This document shows, one piece after another, positions 1,065 to 27,029 of a DNA stretch of 38,793 bases. The stretch spans positions 1-38,793 of the forward strand of contig PSPR01000002.1 of assembly GCA_004195515.1 (NCBI GenBank), read 5' to 3'. How positions within the stretch are numbered: position 1 is the stretch's first letter; every line of letters starts with the position of its first letter. The notes beneath the pieces are model-generated. The model did no database searches, was not told the origin of the DNA, and saw nothing but the letters and a program-made list of their open reading frames with translations. Source of the stretch: Methanobacteriota archaeon. Lineage in GTDB: Archaea > Thermoplasmatota > Poseidoniia > Poseidoniales > Poseidoniaceae. A program made the position numbers and the translations under genes.

Positions 1065-2654
1065 ATGAGTACTGTTCGGCCGTTGTTATTGGTGGTGATG
1101 ATGGCGATGGCTACATTGTCAGGGTGTTTTGGTGAAGACGCTGGGGGTGAAGCGGTCAATAAGTCTGATTTATCGATCTCGCCAAAGGTCTGGTCTGCGG
1201 GTCAATGGCAAATTATCGAATTAGATGCGAAGGCCGATCTAGTGCTTTACGTCCCTCATTTTGTCAAAGACCCTACAACTGGCTTCGTACAAAATGGAAC
1301 CATTATAAACGTGGATTCTGGTGATACTTTAGAATTGCAAATCCTTCCGTCTGCTCGACTTGATTCTGCTACTATCTTTATTGCAGACGCTGGAGAATCG
1401 CTCTTCCCAATCCGGGCGGCTAATGAATCTTGGAATACTTGGATGGAGCGAGGCGCTCCAAATATTGGCTCGGTTTATCCCGTTGCAAATATGGATGGTG
1501 GTGAATTGCCTTGGACAAATGTAAGTGGCGCTGAGGCCCCTCGGAGAATTCCTATCGTGGTCGATATGTATCGCGATGTTGATAATTCCCTAACCATCGA
1601 TGAAGGTCAAGCGCATTCCGAAGGTTGGGTCGATGGTCGAGCGGTTTACGAATGGATCGAGATGATTACCGATGAAACCCCAGACCCATTGGATTTGGCT
1701 GATGGTGCAAAGGGCTATCTCGATCGATGGATTGGCAACGGCAATCCAGCATATGAAGACGCAATCACATTCTTTTCAGGTGTTTTAGAAGGGTATGGTT
1801 TGGACGTTGTCGTTCATAGATTCCAAGCAGGAACCGCTTGGGCTGTAAATATCTGCGGTTACAAAACCGGTACCCAAGTCCCGGATGAATGGTTGGTCTT
1901 CGGAGCCCACTTCGATATTGCTCCTCCGGCCGCATATACTCCGGGCCCAGATCTTCCAGGCTACGGAACTAGAACCGGAGCTTATGATAATACCGCGGGC
2001 TCCTCTATGATTTTGGAAACCGCCGATTCATTATCGAGTATCGATACTCGTCGAACGATGGTATTCTGTTTATGGAGTAGTGAAGAAGAAGGCCTGTGGG
2101 GTTCATCTGCCTTTACTGGAAACTTGACTAATTATCCCGAAATAACCGTTACCAATTATGTCAACCTAGACATGATGGGTATCAATTGGCCCGGGGACTG
2201 GGTTCTTTCGTGTTATATCGGGCCTGAAGAAGACCCTGATTCAATCGACCAAAAGGCGATGTATGAATTGGCAGAATGGGTCGGCGCTGGCCAATTGGGT
2301 TTGGAACATGAAATTGCAAAGGGTTGGGCGGCTTGGTCCGAAGATGGTGAACAAGCAATGTGGTCCGACCAATATGAAGACACGGTCGCAATTTACGAAT
2401 CTCCAACTGCTAGGAGTGACCATGCTTCTTTCCAAGATGACCTTGGAACCATTACCTTGGGTTGGAATGGTGTGGTCGATGGTTATCCTTGTTATCATCG
2501 AGATTGTGATAGATTATCAAAAATGGAATCCTATATGGTTACTGAAGATGCAACTGGTGAACAAAATCTTGTCGAAAGTTTCGATGTGGTTGCATGGTGG
2601 GCAACGATGACATTTTTGACTCTAGACCAAGAGCCTATCATCAATCAAATTTGA
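1065..2654 (+). CDS. M28 family metallopeptidase lipoprotein
   Basis: This is a 529-residue exported zinc aminopeptidase-like protein. The N-terminus is a lipoprotein signal ending in the lipobox LSGC, so the mature protein is probably tethered outside the membrane. A domain of about 200 residues without a recognised family precedes the peptidase domain. The co-catalytic metal-site motifs of M28 are all present: FGAHFD (H282, D284), AYDNTAG (D308), SSEEEG (E340-E342), NLDMMG (D369) and SDHASF (H453). The likely role is peptide degradation at the cell surface. A close paralog with the same layout lies at 5324-7048. The stop codon touches the stop of the convergent LVIVD gene with no spacer. 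Confidence 0.9.
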   Translation: MSTVRPLLLVVMMAMATLSGCFGEDAGGEAVNKSDLSISPKVWSAGQWQIIELDAKADLVLYVPHFVKDPTTGFVQNGTIINVDSGDTLELQILPSARLDSATIFIADAGESLFPIRAANESWNTWMERGAPNIGSVYPVANMDGGELPWTNVSGAEAPRRIPIVVDMYRDVDNSLTIDEGQAHSEGWVDGRAVYEWIEMITDETPDPLDLADGAKGYLDRWIGNGNPAYEDAITFFSGVLEGYGLDVVVHRFQAGTAWAVNICGYKTGTQVPDEWLVFGAHFDIAPPAAYTPGPDLPGYGTRTGAYDNTAGSSMILETADSLSSIDTRRTMVFCLWSSEEEGLWGSSAFTGNLTNYPEITVTNYVNLDMMGINWPGDWVLSCYIGPEEDPDSIDQKAMYELAEWVGAGQLGLEHEIAKGWAAWSEDGEQAMWSDQYEDTVAIYESPTARSDHASFQDDLGTITLGWNGVVDGYPCYHRDCDRLSKMESYMVTEDATGEQNLVESFDVVAWWATMTFLTLDQEPIINQI

Positions 2655-20686: not shown

Positions 20687-21313
20687 ATGGTCAATATTGC
20701 TGGTGCAGGATTAACCGGTATGAGTTGTGCTCTAAAATTAATTGAATCGGAATATGATGTTAGACTATACGAATCGAGACAAGAAATTGGAAATCCAATT
20801 AGATCACCAGGATTTGCAAAAAATATTAATTTAGATTTTGTAAAAATATCCCTAGCAAAACAATCTTCTTTAGGTTGGGGATTTAGAAGAGAATGGTATG
20901 AAAAAGCATTTGCTGAATTAATTTTAATTAAAGGAGGTGAAATTTTTCTCAAAACCGAAGCACCAGATAATGCAATAAATTGTAAGGGTGGTAAATCAAT
21001 TTCATCAGGTTGGCCTAATTCCTCTTTAGATGACACCCTAACAACTTGGAATGGTGGTATTGTTATTGAGTCGGACCTACCAAAAAACATCGAATTAAAT
21101 TCAAAATCACCAATTCATATTTGTTTTCAAAGAGGTGATGATTTAGTTGAATATTGGACTAAAAATCAATTACCTAATCCTTCTAAAGGCTGGTTGGAAA
21201 TCATGCAAGGGGAGCATCCAAATGATGTAAATCTAATAGGAGCCGATGATGCTATCGCTAAAGGTATATCAATAGCCCAAGACTTCATTTCGAATAAGGG
21301 AGGCTCAATCTAA
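20687..21313 (+). CDS. Short FAD/NAD(P)-binding oxidoreductase, geranylgeranyl-reductase-like
   Basis: This 208-residue flavoprotein begins with a dinucleotide-binding fold, IAGAGLTGMSCALKLIES, followed by an acidic strand end (YESRQEIGNP). The C-terminal GADDAIAKGISIAQDFI resembles the segment after the GDA motif of geranylgeranyl reductases. At half the usual 400 residues it lacks most of the substrate domain of that family. It is either a minimal enzyme working with a partner or a non-catalytic derivative. AGGTGA before the ATG is a good ribosome-binding site. The TAA overlaps the ATG of GGGP synthase by one base. Codon use here is noticeably A/T-rich. Confidence 0.65.
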   Translation: MVNIAGAGLTGMSCALKLIESEYDVRLYESRQEIGNPIRSPGFAKNINLDFVKISLAKQSSLGWGFRREWYEKAFAELILIKGGEIFLKTEAPDNAINCKGGKSISSGWPNSSLDDTLTTWNGGIVIESDLPKNIELNSKSPIHICFQRGDDLVEYWTKNQLPNPSKGWLEIMQGEHPNDVNLIGADDAIAKGISIAQDFISNKGGSI

Positions 21314-22116
21314 TGTTAGGCGAGCAGTCATTATTAGATTATATTCTTTCAACAAACCATGGTTGCCGTCATATTACATTGATAGATCCGGGAAAACAAA
21401 GCCCACAAATTGCAACTTCAAGAGCGATAGCAGCAATTGAAGCTGGTTCAAAAATGATTTTCATCGGTGGTTCGACCGACACTCCAGATGAAATAGTTCA
21501 CTCTACCTGTAAATCTATCCAAGAGGAACTTGAATTGCGATGTTTTGCTGCAAGTCAAGATCCAAGTGCAGATGAATCAACTTGGGAAATTCCTGTAGTA
21601 TTATTCCCAGGTGGTGCTCATGCATTATCTCCAGCAGCAGATGGTATAACATTCATGATGTTAATGAATTCAAGAATCAGGAGATTTTTGATCGATGAAC
21701 AATTAAATGGTGCACCATACTTACACAAATTTTCAGTCGAAGCCTTACCTACAGGATATCTTGTATTTACCCCGGGTGGAAAGGTTGGTGAGGTGGGAGA
21801 GGTTGATTTGATAGAATCTGACCAAATTGAATTGGTGAATTCTTATGCTCGTACTGCTCAAATGTTCGGATTTAAAATCCTATATTTGGAGGCAGGGAGT
21901 GGAGCTAATACTCAAGTAAATTCGGAGTGTATAGAATCTGCAAGATTGGTAGAAGAATTATGTTTGATCGTTGGTGGAGGAATTCGAACAGGTCAACAAG
22001 CAGCCAAAGCAGCAAAAGCCGGCGCAAATTGGGTAGTAACTGGAACACTTACCGAAGATGCCGATTCGATTCAACAACTTAAAGAGAGAATATCTGAGAT
22101 AGTTGAAGCGATTTAA
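21313..22116 (+). CDS. Geranylgeranylglyceryl phosphate synthase
   Basis: This 267-residue TIM-barrel prenyltransferase joins glycerol-1-phosphate to geranylgeranyl diphosphate, the first committed step of archaeal ether lipid synthesis. Motifs of the GGGPS/PcrB family are visible: HITLIDPGK near residue 20, MIFIGGSTD, LYLEAGSGA (substrate phosphate and glycerol site) and IVGGGIRTGQQA. The length exceeds bacterial PcrB (about 230), as for archaeal enzymes. It starts one base inside the stop of the FAD-protein gene and ends with a four-base overlap with the convergent coiled-coil gene, so the ferredoxin, FAD protein and synthase form one transcription unit. Confidence 0.93.
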   Translation: MLGEQSLLDYILSTNHGCRHITLIDPGKQSPQIATSRAIAAIEAGSKMIFIGGSTDTPDEIVHSTCKSIQEELELRCFAASQDPSADESTWEIPVVLFPGGAHALSPAADGITFMMLMNSRIRRFLIDEQLNGAPYLHKFSVEALPTGYLVFTPGGKVGEVGEVDLIESDQIELVNSYARTAQMFGFKILYLEAGSGANTQVNSECIESARLVEELCLIVGGGIRTGQQAAKAAKAGANWVVTGTLTEDADSIQQLKERISEIVEAI

Positions 22117-23402
22117 TCTTCATCTTCAAATAAAACCGGGTCACCAGTTCCACCTGGTGAGTTAGGTCTCTTTTCATCAACATCTAAGCCTGTAGTCATC
22201 TCTTCAGTTGAAGTTTCAAGTTCGATTCTCCCACCTTCGGCTAATGTTTGCATATCCTTTGAATCAGGTGTTGAAAGTTTGCGTTCGACATCGGGTGAAT
22301 TAGCATAAATTTCACGCTTTAATTCTCGTTCATCATGACCCCGTACCAACGATAGTGAATCAGCAAAAACCCTTCCGACAACTTCACGAGTTCTTTCGGA
22401 TCTTCTCACACCATCCAATTCATCGACCGCGCTATCACGCTGAGATTCTAACTCTCTCAATTCAGCAGTTCGGTCGGTTAGAGCAGACTCGATATCAACA
22501 ATCGTGAGTGACATTTGTTGAATCCGCTCATCGCGCTCGAATACATCGTTATGTAAGCGGCGCTCACGCCGACGTAATGATTCATATTCCCGATTTCTTT
22601 CAAGTAATCTCCGCTTCAATTCCTCGATTTGTTCAACCAGATAATCATGTTCTGCGGAAACCGACCTAGGACCTTGCATCACCCTTTCCAATTGCTCTTC
22701 CAGTTCACCTAATCTTTGGTCACGTTGGTCGAGTAGACCGCGTAATCTATCAGCGATATCCCGTAAACGTTGGCGCTCTTCTTCCAAAGCATCATTTGCT
22801 GCCTTTTCAGCATCTAAATTTGCTGAAAGTGCATCAACTTGAACCTTTAACGCACGAACTTCATCTGCGGTTACACTAGTCAGTCCAGCATCAGCCGCCC
22901 GTTCGAGCGCTTCAACCATTAAACCAACCCGCCCTTCCATTTCAGCGATAACCTCATCCTGTTGAACTGTTAAATCTCGTAATTGGGAAGTTTCCTTTTC
23001 CAAAACATCTCTTTCTTCGGCAGAAATCGAGGATCTATTTTCAGCTAATTCCTTATTTACATCTTCCAATAATCGTTCTAAATGAACAATTTTCGATTGA
23101 TTCGATTCTAATTCAGATTCCGCAACTCGAAGCTGAGAAACCTCCGGGGCAACCTCGTCTTTTCTCTCAGCAAGGTCTAATTCAACAATTCTCAACCTTT
23201 GTTTTGATGTTAACAATTCTTCGTTACGAGAAGCGAGCTCTTCCCAAGCGATCAAAACTTCTTCAACCAATTGGTCAACCGGGTAACCGCGTAGCATTCC
23301 TTCGAGCGCAGCACGTTCATCACCAGACGAATCACCGATGCGGCCGATACCACTTGAAGACGAAGTCCCGAGAGTCATGGGGTAGGTTCGCACCCTCACC
23401 AT
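22113..23402 (-). CDS. Long coiled-coil protein with DivIVA-like N-terminal motif
   Basis: This 429-residue protein is mostly coiled coil. After a Ser/Gly-rich N-terminus of about 30 residues comes LRGYPVDQLVEEVLIAWEEL, which follows the DivIVA N-terminal pattern (RGY, then a hydrophobic/acidic pair, then a helix). From about residue 50 to 360 the sequence is heptad-rich with many Glu, Arg and Leu, without a globular domain. The C-terminal 70 residues are acidic and probably disordered (PVLFEDED). It is 50 bases downstream of the MreB-like gene on the same strand. A scaffold or filament-associated role is inferred from that. An internal ATG at 23378 is an alternative start. Confidence 0.75.
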   Translation of the reverse strand: MVRVRTYPMTLGTSSSSGIGRIGDSSGDERAALEGMLRGYPVDQLVEEVLIAWEELASRNEELLTSKQRLRIVELDLAERKDEVAPEVSQLRVAESELESNQSKIVHLERLLEDVNKELAENRSSISAEERDVLEKETSQLRDLTVQQDEVIAEMEGRVGLMVEALERAADAGLTSVTADEVRALKVQVDALSANLDAEKAANDALEEERQRLRDIADRLRGLLDQRDQRLGELEEQLERVMQGPRSVSAEHDYLVEQIEELKRRLLERNREYESLRRRERRLHNDVFERDERIQQMSLTIVDIESALTDRTAELRELESQRDSAVDELDGVRRSERTREVVGRVFADSLSLVRGHDERELKREIYANSPDVERKLSTPDSKDMQTLAEGGRIELETSTEEMTTGLDVDEKRPNSPGGTGDPVLFEDED

Positions 23403-23452
23403 TCTTCAACCTTTCATCTGTTGAGTAGGCCAAAGAGCCTCTTTTACTACCT

Positions 23453-24457
23453 TCAGTTGATAGCGGTATATTGCTCATCAGGCATATCCATAGCCAAAGC
23501 CATAGCCCCGGTTGCGACCTTTTCTATCGGGTCTTCTACACATGATACAGTAACATCTCCGATATCTGCAATCTCGTTTGCGATCGCATCTGCGATGCCA
23601 TCTATCAACGAGCCGCCACCAGATAGAATGATGTTATTTCGGAGGATTGGTTGGTATTCAGGATCAGCGGTTGCAACAATATTCTTAATTCCAGAACCAA
23701 CTTTTATGATAATCATTGTACAAGCAGCTTTAACCAAATCCCCAATGTCGACATTTTGCTTCTTTCCTTCGACCGAAAGAGCGACCATATGTTCGCGGTC
23801 ATCGCCACCAACATATGAGAATTCTTCTTTCCACTTGCGGACCATATCTTTTGTGACTTGAGCCCCAGTGTATTTTTTGCAGATTAATTCAACCAATTGT
23901 TCATCGATCCAATCTCCAGCTTCCATAATGGTGACCTGGTCATCTTCAGTTGGGAAGGTTCCGTGCAAACGTGCGATATCTGTGGTTCCAGCGCCGATAT
24001 CAACAACAATTGAACCTGCGATTTCTCCAATTCCATATGCGGTTGCGAATGGTTCGGTAACGACCATGATAGCGTTTACTTGACCACGTAGAGTTGCGAC
24101 TAAATTGCTCTTGTCGGTGAATGAAACGTGGGAAGGAGAACAGATCACTCCGAAAACCTCGTCATATTCCTCAGGGTCGACGGTCTCTACCAAATGGGTG
24201 ACAAACGCTCTTGCTGCTGCCATATTTGCTTCATCGTCTTGAGTAACACCTGCAGCCATAGGGCGGTAGATATTACAAGCCAATTTATTCTTTAGTGCAT
24301 CTGCACCAAATAATACATCTCGGCCGAGGAAATTTCGAGCGATTGGGTCCTTTGGTCGACCTACAACCGTTTCGATAGTTTCGATAGAACCAGAGCTTGA
24401 TGCTATGGTTGATTGATATGTTCCTAGGTCGATTCCCACATAGAGTCGTTCTGCCAT
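23453..24457 (-). CDS. MreB/MamK-like actin-family ATPase
   Basis: This 334-residue actin-fold ATPase has a length typical of MreB and MamK. The phosphate loops are VGIDLGTYQSTIA (residues 7-19) and VVDIGAGTTDIA. TEPFATAYGIG is the connecting helix and ILSGGGSLIDGIADAI the adenosine site. Such proteins form filaments that organise cell shape or internal positioning; the closest bacterial subgroup is not decidable by eye, and an Hsp70-type chaperone is excluded by size. The frame extends 18 codons upstream, but GGTGAG four bases before the ATG at 24457 supports the start I chose. It lies between a subtilase gene and the coiled-coil gene. Confidence 0.88.
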   Translation of the reverse strand: MAERLYVGIDLGTYQSTIASSSGSIETIETVVGRPKDPIARNFLGRDVLFGADALKNKLACNIYRPMAAGVTQDDEANMAAARAFVTHLVETVDPEEYDEVFGVICSPSHVSFTDKSNLVATLRGQVNAIMVVTEPFATAYGIGEIAGSIVVDIGAGTTDIARLHGTFPTEDDQVTIMEAGDWIDEQLVELICKKYTGAQVTKDMVRKWKEEFSYVGGDDREHMVALSVEGKKQNVDIGDLVKAACTMIIIKVGSGIKNIVATADPEYQPILRNNIILSGGGSLIDGIADAIANEIADIGDVTVSCVEDPIEKVATGAMALAMDMPDEQYTAIN

Positions 24458-24499: not shown

Positions 24500-24533
24500 A
24501 CCTACCTTCAATGTTCACTCGCGCAACAATGGT

Positions 24534-26666
24534 TTATTCCTGTTCTAAAAAGGGGTCGGGTACATCCTGAAACACTTTCCTTTCTAAAGCCCTAAATGTA
24601 ATACTGGTCATAAATAATACCCCAGCAACAATTCCAAAAATACCCCAAAATAATGCTCTATTATCGCTACTTTTTGTAATGGTGTTATTTTGAGGCGGAA
24701 TGGATTTATTTTCCAAAGCCGGATTGTCCCACCAAAGTGTAAAATTGTCGCTTTGGTAATTTGAAAGAGTATAATTTGTCCAAGCAGATTCGTTATTATC
24801 AACCCATAAAAATTCTACCCGCCAGTCATGGCGATTAAATTGATAGAGAATTAAATCATCGGGTATTTTCACCACACATTGATTTGAATTATTTTCAATA
24901 ACATATATCGTACAGTTGTCTAGAACTATTGAATAATTTGAATTATTCAATCCAATCATTACAACAACACTATCATTTTCAAAATCAAATATACTCCAAT
25001 TTATCGAAAAATAATCACTATAGTTTTCTTTTAGATCTCCAACAAATAATATTGGCGCAGTATTGTGAATTACACAACCACTATCATTAACAGGCGCACC
25101 AAAATATGTATTATCACATTCATCAATTTCATTAGAGACACCATCAGAATCTTCATCTTGCCATACCCAAGGATTAGAATCAAGCCCTGTTGCAGAAAGG
25201 GAAAATCCCAATCTATTCCCATTGACTCCAACCGTCCCCGGCACAGAGCCATTGTGAATCCTCTTTGCAAAAACCTCAATTTCAACCCACTCACTATCAT
25301 TTAATTGGCTTGCAGGGATTCGAATCATAACCGTTGTTTCATTACTTGAATTCTTATCTTTTGAATCCATAAAAGACGGATAATAAAGCGGAGAAAACCC
25401 ACTTGATGTTAGATCGTCATCGATTGCATATTTCCCATCACTAGTATGGGCAATCAATCTCAAATCATCTATCTCATAAGGTTGGGGCCTAGAATTATAG
25501 GACATTGTGATTGTCACATCACTACCATTTATTTGTTTAAATTTAATTTTATACGAATCACCTTGTTCTAAAAACGGCCCTTCACTTCCAGAACCATTCC
25601 ACGGATTTTCTAATAATTCAAAATTTGAATCTCCGCGGGCATCAATGATCGAAGTATGATTTTCTGTCTGGAATGAATCATGAATCCAAATATCTTCAAC
25701 ATTTGAGATATTCGGTAATCCATAACCTTGCAGTTGGTCTGGAGAAGCTCCAGTTAATGGATCCGCTGAAAGCGCTAGCATTGCCCGTAATAACGCAGCG
25801 GAAGGAACAAATCCATATTCGTCTTGGATTTTTTGTTGTAATAAGGCGGTAAAAGAAGCAGCCATCGGGGTTGCCATACTAGTTCCCGTCATCGCTAAGG
25901 ATTCATTATTGAACGAATCTACAATTCCATCGCCCTTTGCCGAAACCACATCTACACCTGGAGCCGAGATCAAAATACCTCGGCGCCCATCGGCATCTGG
26001 GCCGTGGGAACTCGACGGCCAGAGGCTAGAATTTCCATCACTAGCAGCAACAGCAACAACATTTCTTGCATTTGCAGGCTCCAATAATCGACCACCATTA
26101 TTTCCAGGGGCGATAAAAATCAAACTCCATGGGTTTTCCATCGTCCAAGTGTCGATATTTGCTGACCGATTAGTATAGTCCACAGTATTATCACCCCAGG
26201 ACCAAGAATGAATTACCGCTCCAGCAGCCCCAGCTTCAGACAATAATTTGTCGACTGCGGGCGGGGTCCACCCAGAATCTCCGACAATATCTTGGACGAC
26301 TAATCTCGCTCCACTAGAGAGAGATGCCATTCCACCTTCCCCCTCCAAAGGGTCGCAACCGAGAATCCCAGCGATATGGGTTCCGTGCCGAAATTGTTGT
26401 TGGCCGGAATTATCCCAATTATCGATTGTATCATTGATCAAAACCACCTTTCGATGGTTTACCCCCGGGGTTCCAGTTTGGTTAATTGAATCTCTAAAAC
26501 AAGAATGGTCGAGATCAATACCGGTATCTGCAACCGAAATAATCACCCCCGTTCCATTTAGATTTTCGCTATACTCCGAGCCAATTATCATATTATCTGA
26601 TGCGAGTGAAGCCGACGCAGGGGTGATGATTGCAGCGAGTAAAATCACCACCATCAGCACTCGCAT
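24534..26666 (-). CDS. Subtilisin-family (S8) serine protease, secreted and membrane-anchored
   Basis: This is a 710-residue exported protease. The signal peptide covers residues 1-20 (ending ASAS). The catalytic triad is present: D47 in SVADTGIDLDHS, H94 in RHGTHIAGIL and S263 in GTSMATPMA, with the oxyanion Asn in APGNNGG. No long propeptide separates the signal from the catalytic domain. After the protease domain (to about residue 320) come beta-rich extracellular domains and an acidic segment DEDSDGVSNEIDEC that resembles a calcium-binding thrombospondin type 3 repeat. A membrane helix near residues 670-692 anchors it. It probably degrades external proteins. It is divergent from the eL20 gene. 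Confidence 0.93.
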   Translation of the reverse strand: MRVLMVVILLAAIITPASASLASDNMIIGSEYSENLNGTGVIISVADTGIDLDHSCFRDSINQTGTPGVNHRKVVLINDTIDNWDNSGQQQFRHGTHIAGILGCDPLEGEGGMASLSSGARLVVQDIVGDSGWTPPAVDKLLSEAGAAGAVIHSWSWGDNTVDYTNRSANIDTWTMENPWSLIFIAPGNNGGRLLEPANARNVVAVAASDGNSSLWPSSSHGPDADGRRGILISAPGVDVVSAKGDGIVDSFNNESLAMTGTSMATPMAASFTALLQQKIQDEYGFVPSAALLRAMLALSADPLTGASPDQLQGYGLPNISNVEDIWIHDSFQTENHTSIIDARGDSNFELLENPWNGSGSEGPFLEQGDSYKIKFKQINGSDVTITMSYNSRPQPYEIDDLRLIAHTSDGKYAIDDDLTSSGFSPLYYPSFMDSKDKNSSNETTVMIRIPASQLNDSEWVEIEVFAKRIHNGSVPGTVGVNGNRLGFSLSATGLDSNPWVWQDEDSDGVSNEIDECDNTYFGAPVNDSGCVIHNTAPILFVGDLKENYSDYFSINWSIFDFENDSVVVMIGLNNSNYSIVLDNCTIYVIENNSNQCVVKIPDDLILYQFNRHDWRVEFLWVDNNESAWTNYTLSNYQSDNFTLWWDNPALENKSIPPQNNTITKSSDNRALFWGIFGIVAGVLFMTSITFRALERKVFQDVPDPFLEQE

Positions 26667-26711: not shown

Positions 26712-26726
26712 GTGCGCGCCAGCGCG

Positions 26727-26735
26727 TTTAATACT
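26727..26735 (+). promoter_or_regulatory. TATA box of the eL20-prefoldin-ftsY operon
   Basis: TTTAATACT lies 22-30 bases before the ATG at 26757. This is the spacing of a leaderless archaeal transcript and also supports the internal start chosen for eL20 over the longer open frame. Confidence 0.55.
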
Positions 26736-26756
26736 AAATCACAGGTCGGCGGCACC

Positions 26757-27029
26757 ATGCAAGCATTCCGCATCTCCGGTATCGCTCCATTCGGCCGCCA
26801 ACGCCAAGAATTCACCATCGACTTAGCTGCAAGTTCTGCAGATGACGCAGAACACCGCTGCTATTCGATTATGGGTTCTCGCCACAAAGCGAACCGCCGT
26901 GCCATTACCATCAACTCGATTGAAGAAATCGATCCCCGAACCTCAACAGAACCAAGAGTTTTAGATGCTTTCCGGGAACAGATTGCTGCTGCCGGCGGTC
27001 GAATTGCACCTTCTCAAGAGGAAGAATAA
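26757..27029 (+). CDS. rpl18a: Large ribosomal subunit protein eL20 (LX/L18Ae)
   Basis: This 90-residue protein is the archaeal LX, counterpart of eukaryotic L18a/eL20, a component of the 50S subunit. The start MQAFRISGIAPFGRQRQEFT and the conserved HRCYSIMGSRHKANRR are characteristic, as is ITINSIEEIDP. The open frame extends 15 codons upstream, but that part carries the TATA box and has no family similarity. The order eL20, prefoldin alpha, ftsY is conserved in many euryarchaea, which supports all three calls. Confidence 0.95.
   Translation: MQAFRISGIAPFGRQRQEFTIDLAASSADDAEHRCYSIMGSRHKANRRAITINSIEEIDPRTSTEPRVLDAFREQIAAAGGRIAPSQEEE

Follow-up and report, generated by a model that had tools for sequence, protein, structure and literature searches.

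MamK-family actins of magnetotactic bacteria work with coiled-coil proteins, one or two actins at a time: MamK acts with MamJ, and the magnetosome network of deep-branching magnetotactic bacteria contains coiled-coil Mad proteins (Mad20, Mad23, Mad25 and Mad26) with MamK and the actin-like Mad28 (PMC12748827). A MamK-related actin of Verrucomicrobiota, BeeR, occurs outside magnetotactic bacteria (PMC11929497), and MamK has been reported as the nearest actin subfamily to salactin, which like volactin is haloarchaeal (PMC10746226, PMC10869688). In other bacterial systems, DivIVA and GpsB combine a short helix, a turn with a tyrosine, and a long coiled coil. Among archaea, crenactin is encoded with partner genes (arcadins), including one for a coiled-coil protein.

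Here we describe an actin and a coiled-coil protein, referred to as actin A and CC, encoded in a stretch of 38,793 nucleotides (the window) from Ca. Poseidoniales (Marine Group II, Poseidoniaceae); its nearest matching loci bear the names Ca. Poseidoniaceae or Marine Group II. Marine Group II archaea are very abundant in the ocean and have no cultured representative. The literature we searched yielded no published description of Poseidoniales actins or of an MG-II cytoskeleton, though most subscription journals and preprints lay outside its scope and this absence is not proof; the main phylogenomic paper on Poseidoniales mentions neither actin, MreB, nor cytoskeleton in its main text.

The actin and its coiled-coil neighbour

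The sequence-only reading of the window had noted an actin-fold ATPase with all its nucleotide motifs and a gene for a 429-residue coiled-coil protein that starts 50 bp after it in the same direction, and both observations were borne out (Table 1). Actin A matched Pfam MreB_Mbl (81 bits, E 8e-23) and carries the phosphate-1 (GIDLGTYQST), phosphate-2 (VVDIGAGTTDIA), and adenosine (IILSGGGSLIDG) motifs; a possible alternative TTG start lies upstream at 24511. The same reading had called the protein MreB-like: the actin fold stands, but MamK-like is the better description, as actin A scored 341 bits to the NCBIfam MamK model versus 76 to MreB, and its closest solved relative is MamK (PDB 5jyg, E 2e-62); it is 35% identical to MamK and 23% identical to E. 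coli MreB. Because 341 bits falls under the MamK cut-off (NF040964, 400 bits), we name it MamK-type and not MamK; it was also below the cut-offs of the BeeR (NF053558, 209 versus 530 bits), MreB (293 bits), and salactin (NF053533, 29 versus 400 bits) models. Judged from its sequence, actin A is a MamK-type, bacterial-style actin in archaea, and among 390 Thermoplasmatota genomes this actin family was detected in Poseidoniales only, plus a single genome, G254.

Table 1. Features of the actin A locus in the window, and the actin B locus on another contig
Feature	Position	Strand	Basis or remark
Actin A, MamK-type actin, 335 aa	23453..24460	-	ORF listing, Pfam/NCBIfam, PDB profile search
CC, coiled-coil partner, 429 aa	22113..23402	-	ORF listing, homologue comparison, AF2
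CC residues 27-171, N-terminal part with LRGY...QLVEEV	22890..23324	-	kept alone (~150 aa) in actin-less clade
CC residues 244-300, most conserved block, long forms only	22503..22673	-	pairwise identity; candidate actin-binding site
Subtilisin-like S8 protease, upstream of actin A	24534..26666	-	conserved neighbour; missing from site in actin-less clade
GGGP synthase-like gene (GGGPS), convergent flank anchoring orthologous locus	21313..22116	+	ORF listing, locus comparison
Ribosomal protein L18A, second locus anchor	26712..27029	+	Pfam scan, locus comparison
Actin B locus with zinc-ribbon neighbour	L001:2571-3614 with 1447-2580	-	gene directly upstream of actin B

By analogy, the nearest worked-out parallel to actin A and CC is the Mad coiled-coil network with MamK and Mad28, with CC likened to MamJ and the Mad proteins by system logic. 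Unlike the actins of MamK systems, actin A is archaeal and scores below the MamK cut-off, and no magnetosome (mam) genes were recognised within the window. Like BeeR, it is a MamK-related actin outside magnetotactic bacteria, but BeeR has a disordered N-terminal extension of 30-50 residues that is missing in actin A. Salactin and volactin share with it a euryarchaeal host, though its score to the salactin model is very low, and crenactin with its arcadins also pairs an archaeal actin with a coiled-coil partner, but belongs to another actin family, and CC had no arcadin match in our scans.

In the AF2 model, CC consists of a short helix (residues 27-37), a turn, and long helices at 42-125, 128-171, 179-242, and 248-368, with a coiled-coil periodicity of 3.48-3.58 residues; LRGYPVDQLVEEVL lies at residues 37-50. 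Mean pairwise identity was 0.81-0.91 in the block 244-300 versus 0.53 in residues 27-171. CC had no Pfam or NCBIfam hit and no recognised actin-binding motif, PDB profile searches returned weak coiled-coil matches only and no solved relative, and Foldseek, which is little informative for coiled coils, found no match for either CC model.

Gene order had been put forward as a check on the pair, and it proved conserved: actin is followed by CC on one strand at a distance of ≤200 bp in 81 of the 87 loci holding both genes (a count that includes a few re-fetched copies of one genome), which span two families; the adjacency is not due to chance. In the remaining six loci, 0.5-3.9 kb separates the two. 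One of these six (L160:6255-9944) carries a 1229-aa adhesin-like gene between actin A and CC, on their strand. Another genome, G030, has actin and CC on separate contigs.

Actin loss and CC truncation in Thalassarchaeaceae

We surveyed 148 genomes of family f2 of the compared set, which we take to be Thalassarchaeaceae (PMC6461757). A long CC was present in 23 genomes (genera g15, g17, g19, and g21), 22 of which also carry actin A, and a short CC in 54 genomes (genera g12, g13, g14, g16, g18, g20, and g22), none of which carries actin. Actin A was found in 23 Thalassarchaeaceae genomes, all within the long-CC genera. The exceptions were G061, a 70% complete genome with a long CC and no actin, and G141, with actin and no CC found. 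The short CC matches only about the first 170 positions and is cut to the N-terminal ~150 residues, a half that stays conserved in sequence. In the loci examined it sits between L18A and GGGPS (the GGGP synthase-like gene, so named from its sequence), as CC does in the window, marking the locus as orthologous. These short genes (L144-L147, L188-L202) are maintained without actin, so the N-terminal domain has some actin-independent role.

At the actin-less locus, what lay upstream (protease and actin) and what lay downstream (the C-terminal half of CC) have both gone, and the N-terminal half between them stays; because the losses flank a retained segment, a single contiguous deletion cannot account for them. 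In the tree, the genera without actin group as a single clade (bootstrap 100) that sits within the actin carriers, so the pattern reflects one event and the genome counts are not independent; a Fisher p-value calculated from them carries no evidential weight. Parsimony favours loss, not gain, of actin. On this reading, one Thalassarchaeaceae lineage lost actin together with the half of CC that probably worked with it, and this natural truncation indicates which part of the partner matters for testing.

Functional readings of the pair

We suggest, at somewhat better than even chances, that the locus encodes a MamK-type filament and an adaptor specific to it, and that CC serves the filament through its C-terminal half. 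Actin A would be a MamK-family filament-forming ATPase, polymerising with ATP into MamK-like filaments, and CC would be their dedicated adaptor or cross-linker. The block 244-300 in the C-terminal half may bind or bundle the filament, and the N-terminal half (residues 27-171) would dock on some partner or site whose importance does not depend on actin, which may be why it was kept after actin loss. We consider it highly likely that actin A and CC are functionally linked, and reasonably likely that the C-terminal half is the actin-facing part. Together, filament and adaptor would hold something in position or give the cell order, by a logic like that of MamK with MamJ or the Mad coiled-coil proteins; positioning rather than shape is a role to which we would give slightly less than even chances. 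If true, an archaeal MamK-type actin with a dedicated partner would mean that members of this actin family serve a purpose unrelated to magnetosomes.

General genome reduction could strip unrelated genes together, which counts against this explanation, as do the singleness of the loss event, the MamK score under cut-off and the lack of a recognised actin-binding motif in CC. The two genes could then be mere neighbours whose shared loss reflects streamlining in one clade, a reading that fits a single loss event and the smaller actin-less genomes (~0.8-1.7 Mb without actin and 1.2-2.2 Mb with it, from incomplete assemblies). Streamlining, however, predicts a neighbour either lost or left whole, not one truncated with its N-terminal half conserved, and with gene order this tight across two families we regard the reading as quite improbable. 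Actin A and CC could also organise the shape of the cell or the growth of its envelope, a process in which the neighbouring subtilase would take part: the three genes are codirectional and closely spaced, and the actin-less clade has no subtilase at this locus. Only the local subtilase copy was tracked and others may exist, and actin A has no obvious N-terminal amphipathic helix (by inspection only), making a shape or envelope role unlikely, though less so than a chance pairing. A ParM/AlpA-like or SMC-like role in chromosome segregation would draw on the weak match of CC to SMC coiled coils, but these matches cover the coiled coil only, lie far under cut-off, and were judged coiled-coil noise; with no DNA-binding domain found and actin A chromosomal and distant from ParM, such a role is very unlikely.

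The sequence-only reading had instead proposed a polarity or shape module with a DivIVA-like CC; in such a module, CC would mark curvature in the manner of DivIVA and recruit the actin. In the AF2 model, the N-terminal outline of CC (a short helix, then a turn containing GY, then a long helix) does resemble DivIVA, and Y40 is invariant in a 12-row alignment. Homology was undetectable, however: Pfam, NCBIfam, and Foldseek gave no support, the DivIVA model PF05103 never found CC in 41 genomes at E≤10, and the profile comparison of the CC N-terminus with DivIVA by hhalign reached a probability of 0.25%, a test that had power because the same procedure recovers GpsB from DivIVA at 96.7%. Nor is the motif itself conserved, as 99 distinct long homologues have KGY (49), RAY (18), RGY (12), or KSY (11) at the RGY position, with Tyr as the constant letter and Gly kept in only 64 of them; the short forms have lost the triplet. 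DivIVA homology is thus largely refuted by profile, structure-search, and motif tests, and a DivIVA-type marker is extremely unlikely. Two outcomes had been named as jointly counting against the module, absence of a DivIVA match and unconserved gene order; the match is absent, but the order is conserved. What endures of a bacterial-type module in archaea is the actin with its coiled coil, their conserved order, and their concerted loss, without the DivIVA part.

A second actin paralogue, actin B, is ~45% identical to actin A and encoded on another contig. The actin B sequences scanned scored 344-377 bits to NF040964, below the MamK cut-off (400), and the split between A and B is weakly supported (73) in a tree with few outgroups. 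The protein encoded directly upstream of actin B matches zinc ribbons weakly at each end, with scores under the cut-off, and may have some resemblance to TerB-like domains. Its full-length homologues occur in actin-carrying genera only, and actin B and this neighbour are also absent, at their separate locus, from the actin-less Thalassarchaeaceae clade; they probably belong to the same system as actin A and CC. Tentatively, Marine Group II may possess a MamK-type cytoskeleton built on two actins, A acting with CC and B with the zinc-ribbon protein, whose task, outside magnetotaxis, would be to position cell contents or to order the cell interior. Most lineages of the order would have inherited it, and it would have been lost a single time, as a whole. 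The archaellum was rejected as the actin-linked structure, since archaellin is present in the actin-less genera g14 and g22.

On the complete MG-II chromosome CM001443 (L155:5433-6457), actin B appears as two adjacent ORFs, probably through a frameshift or assembly error. Outside Poseidoniales, the 5 Mb Thermoplasmatota genome G254 encodes a MamK-family actin (L181:7128-8225) that scores 435 bits, above the MamK cut-off. After a gap of 197 bp comes the gene of an unrelated protein of 618 aa (L181:8423-10279), which appears coiled-coil by eye and was not alignable with CC. A plasmid search for relatives of this actin returned none. Though 7% contamination is listed for the genome, a Kae1-like gene adjoins its actin.
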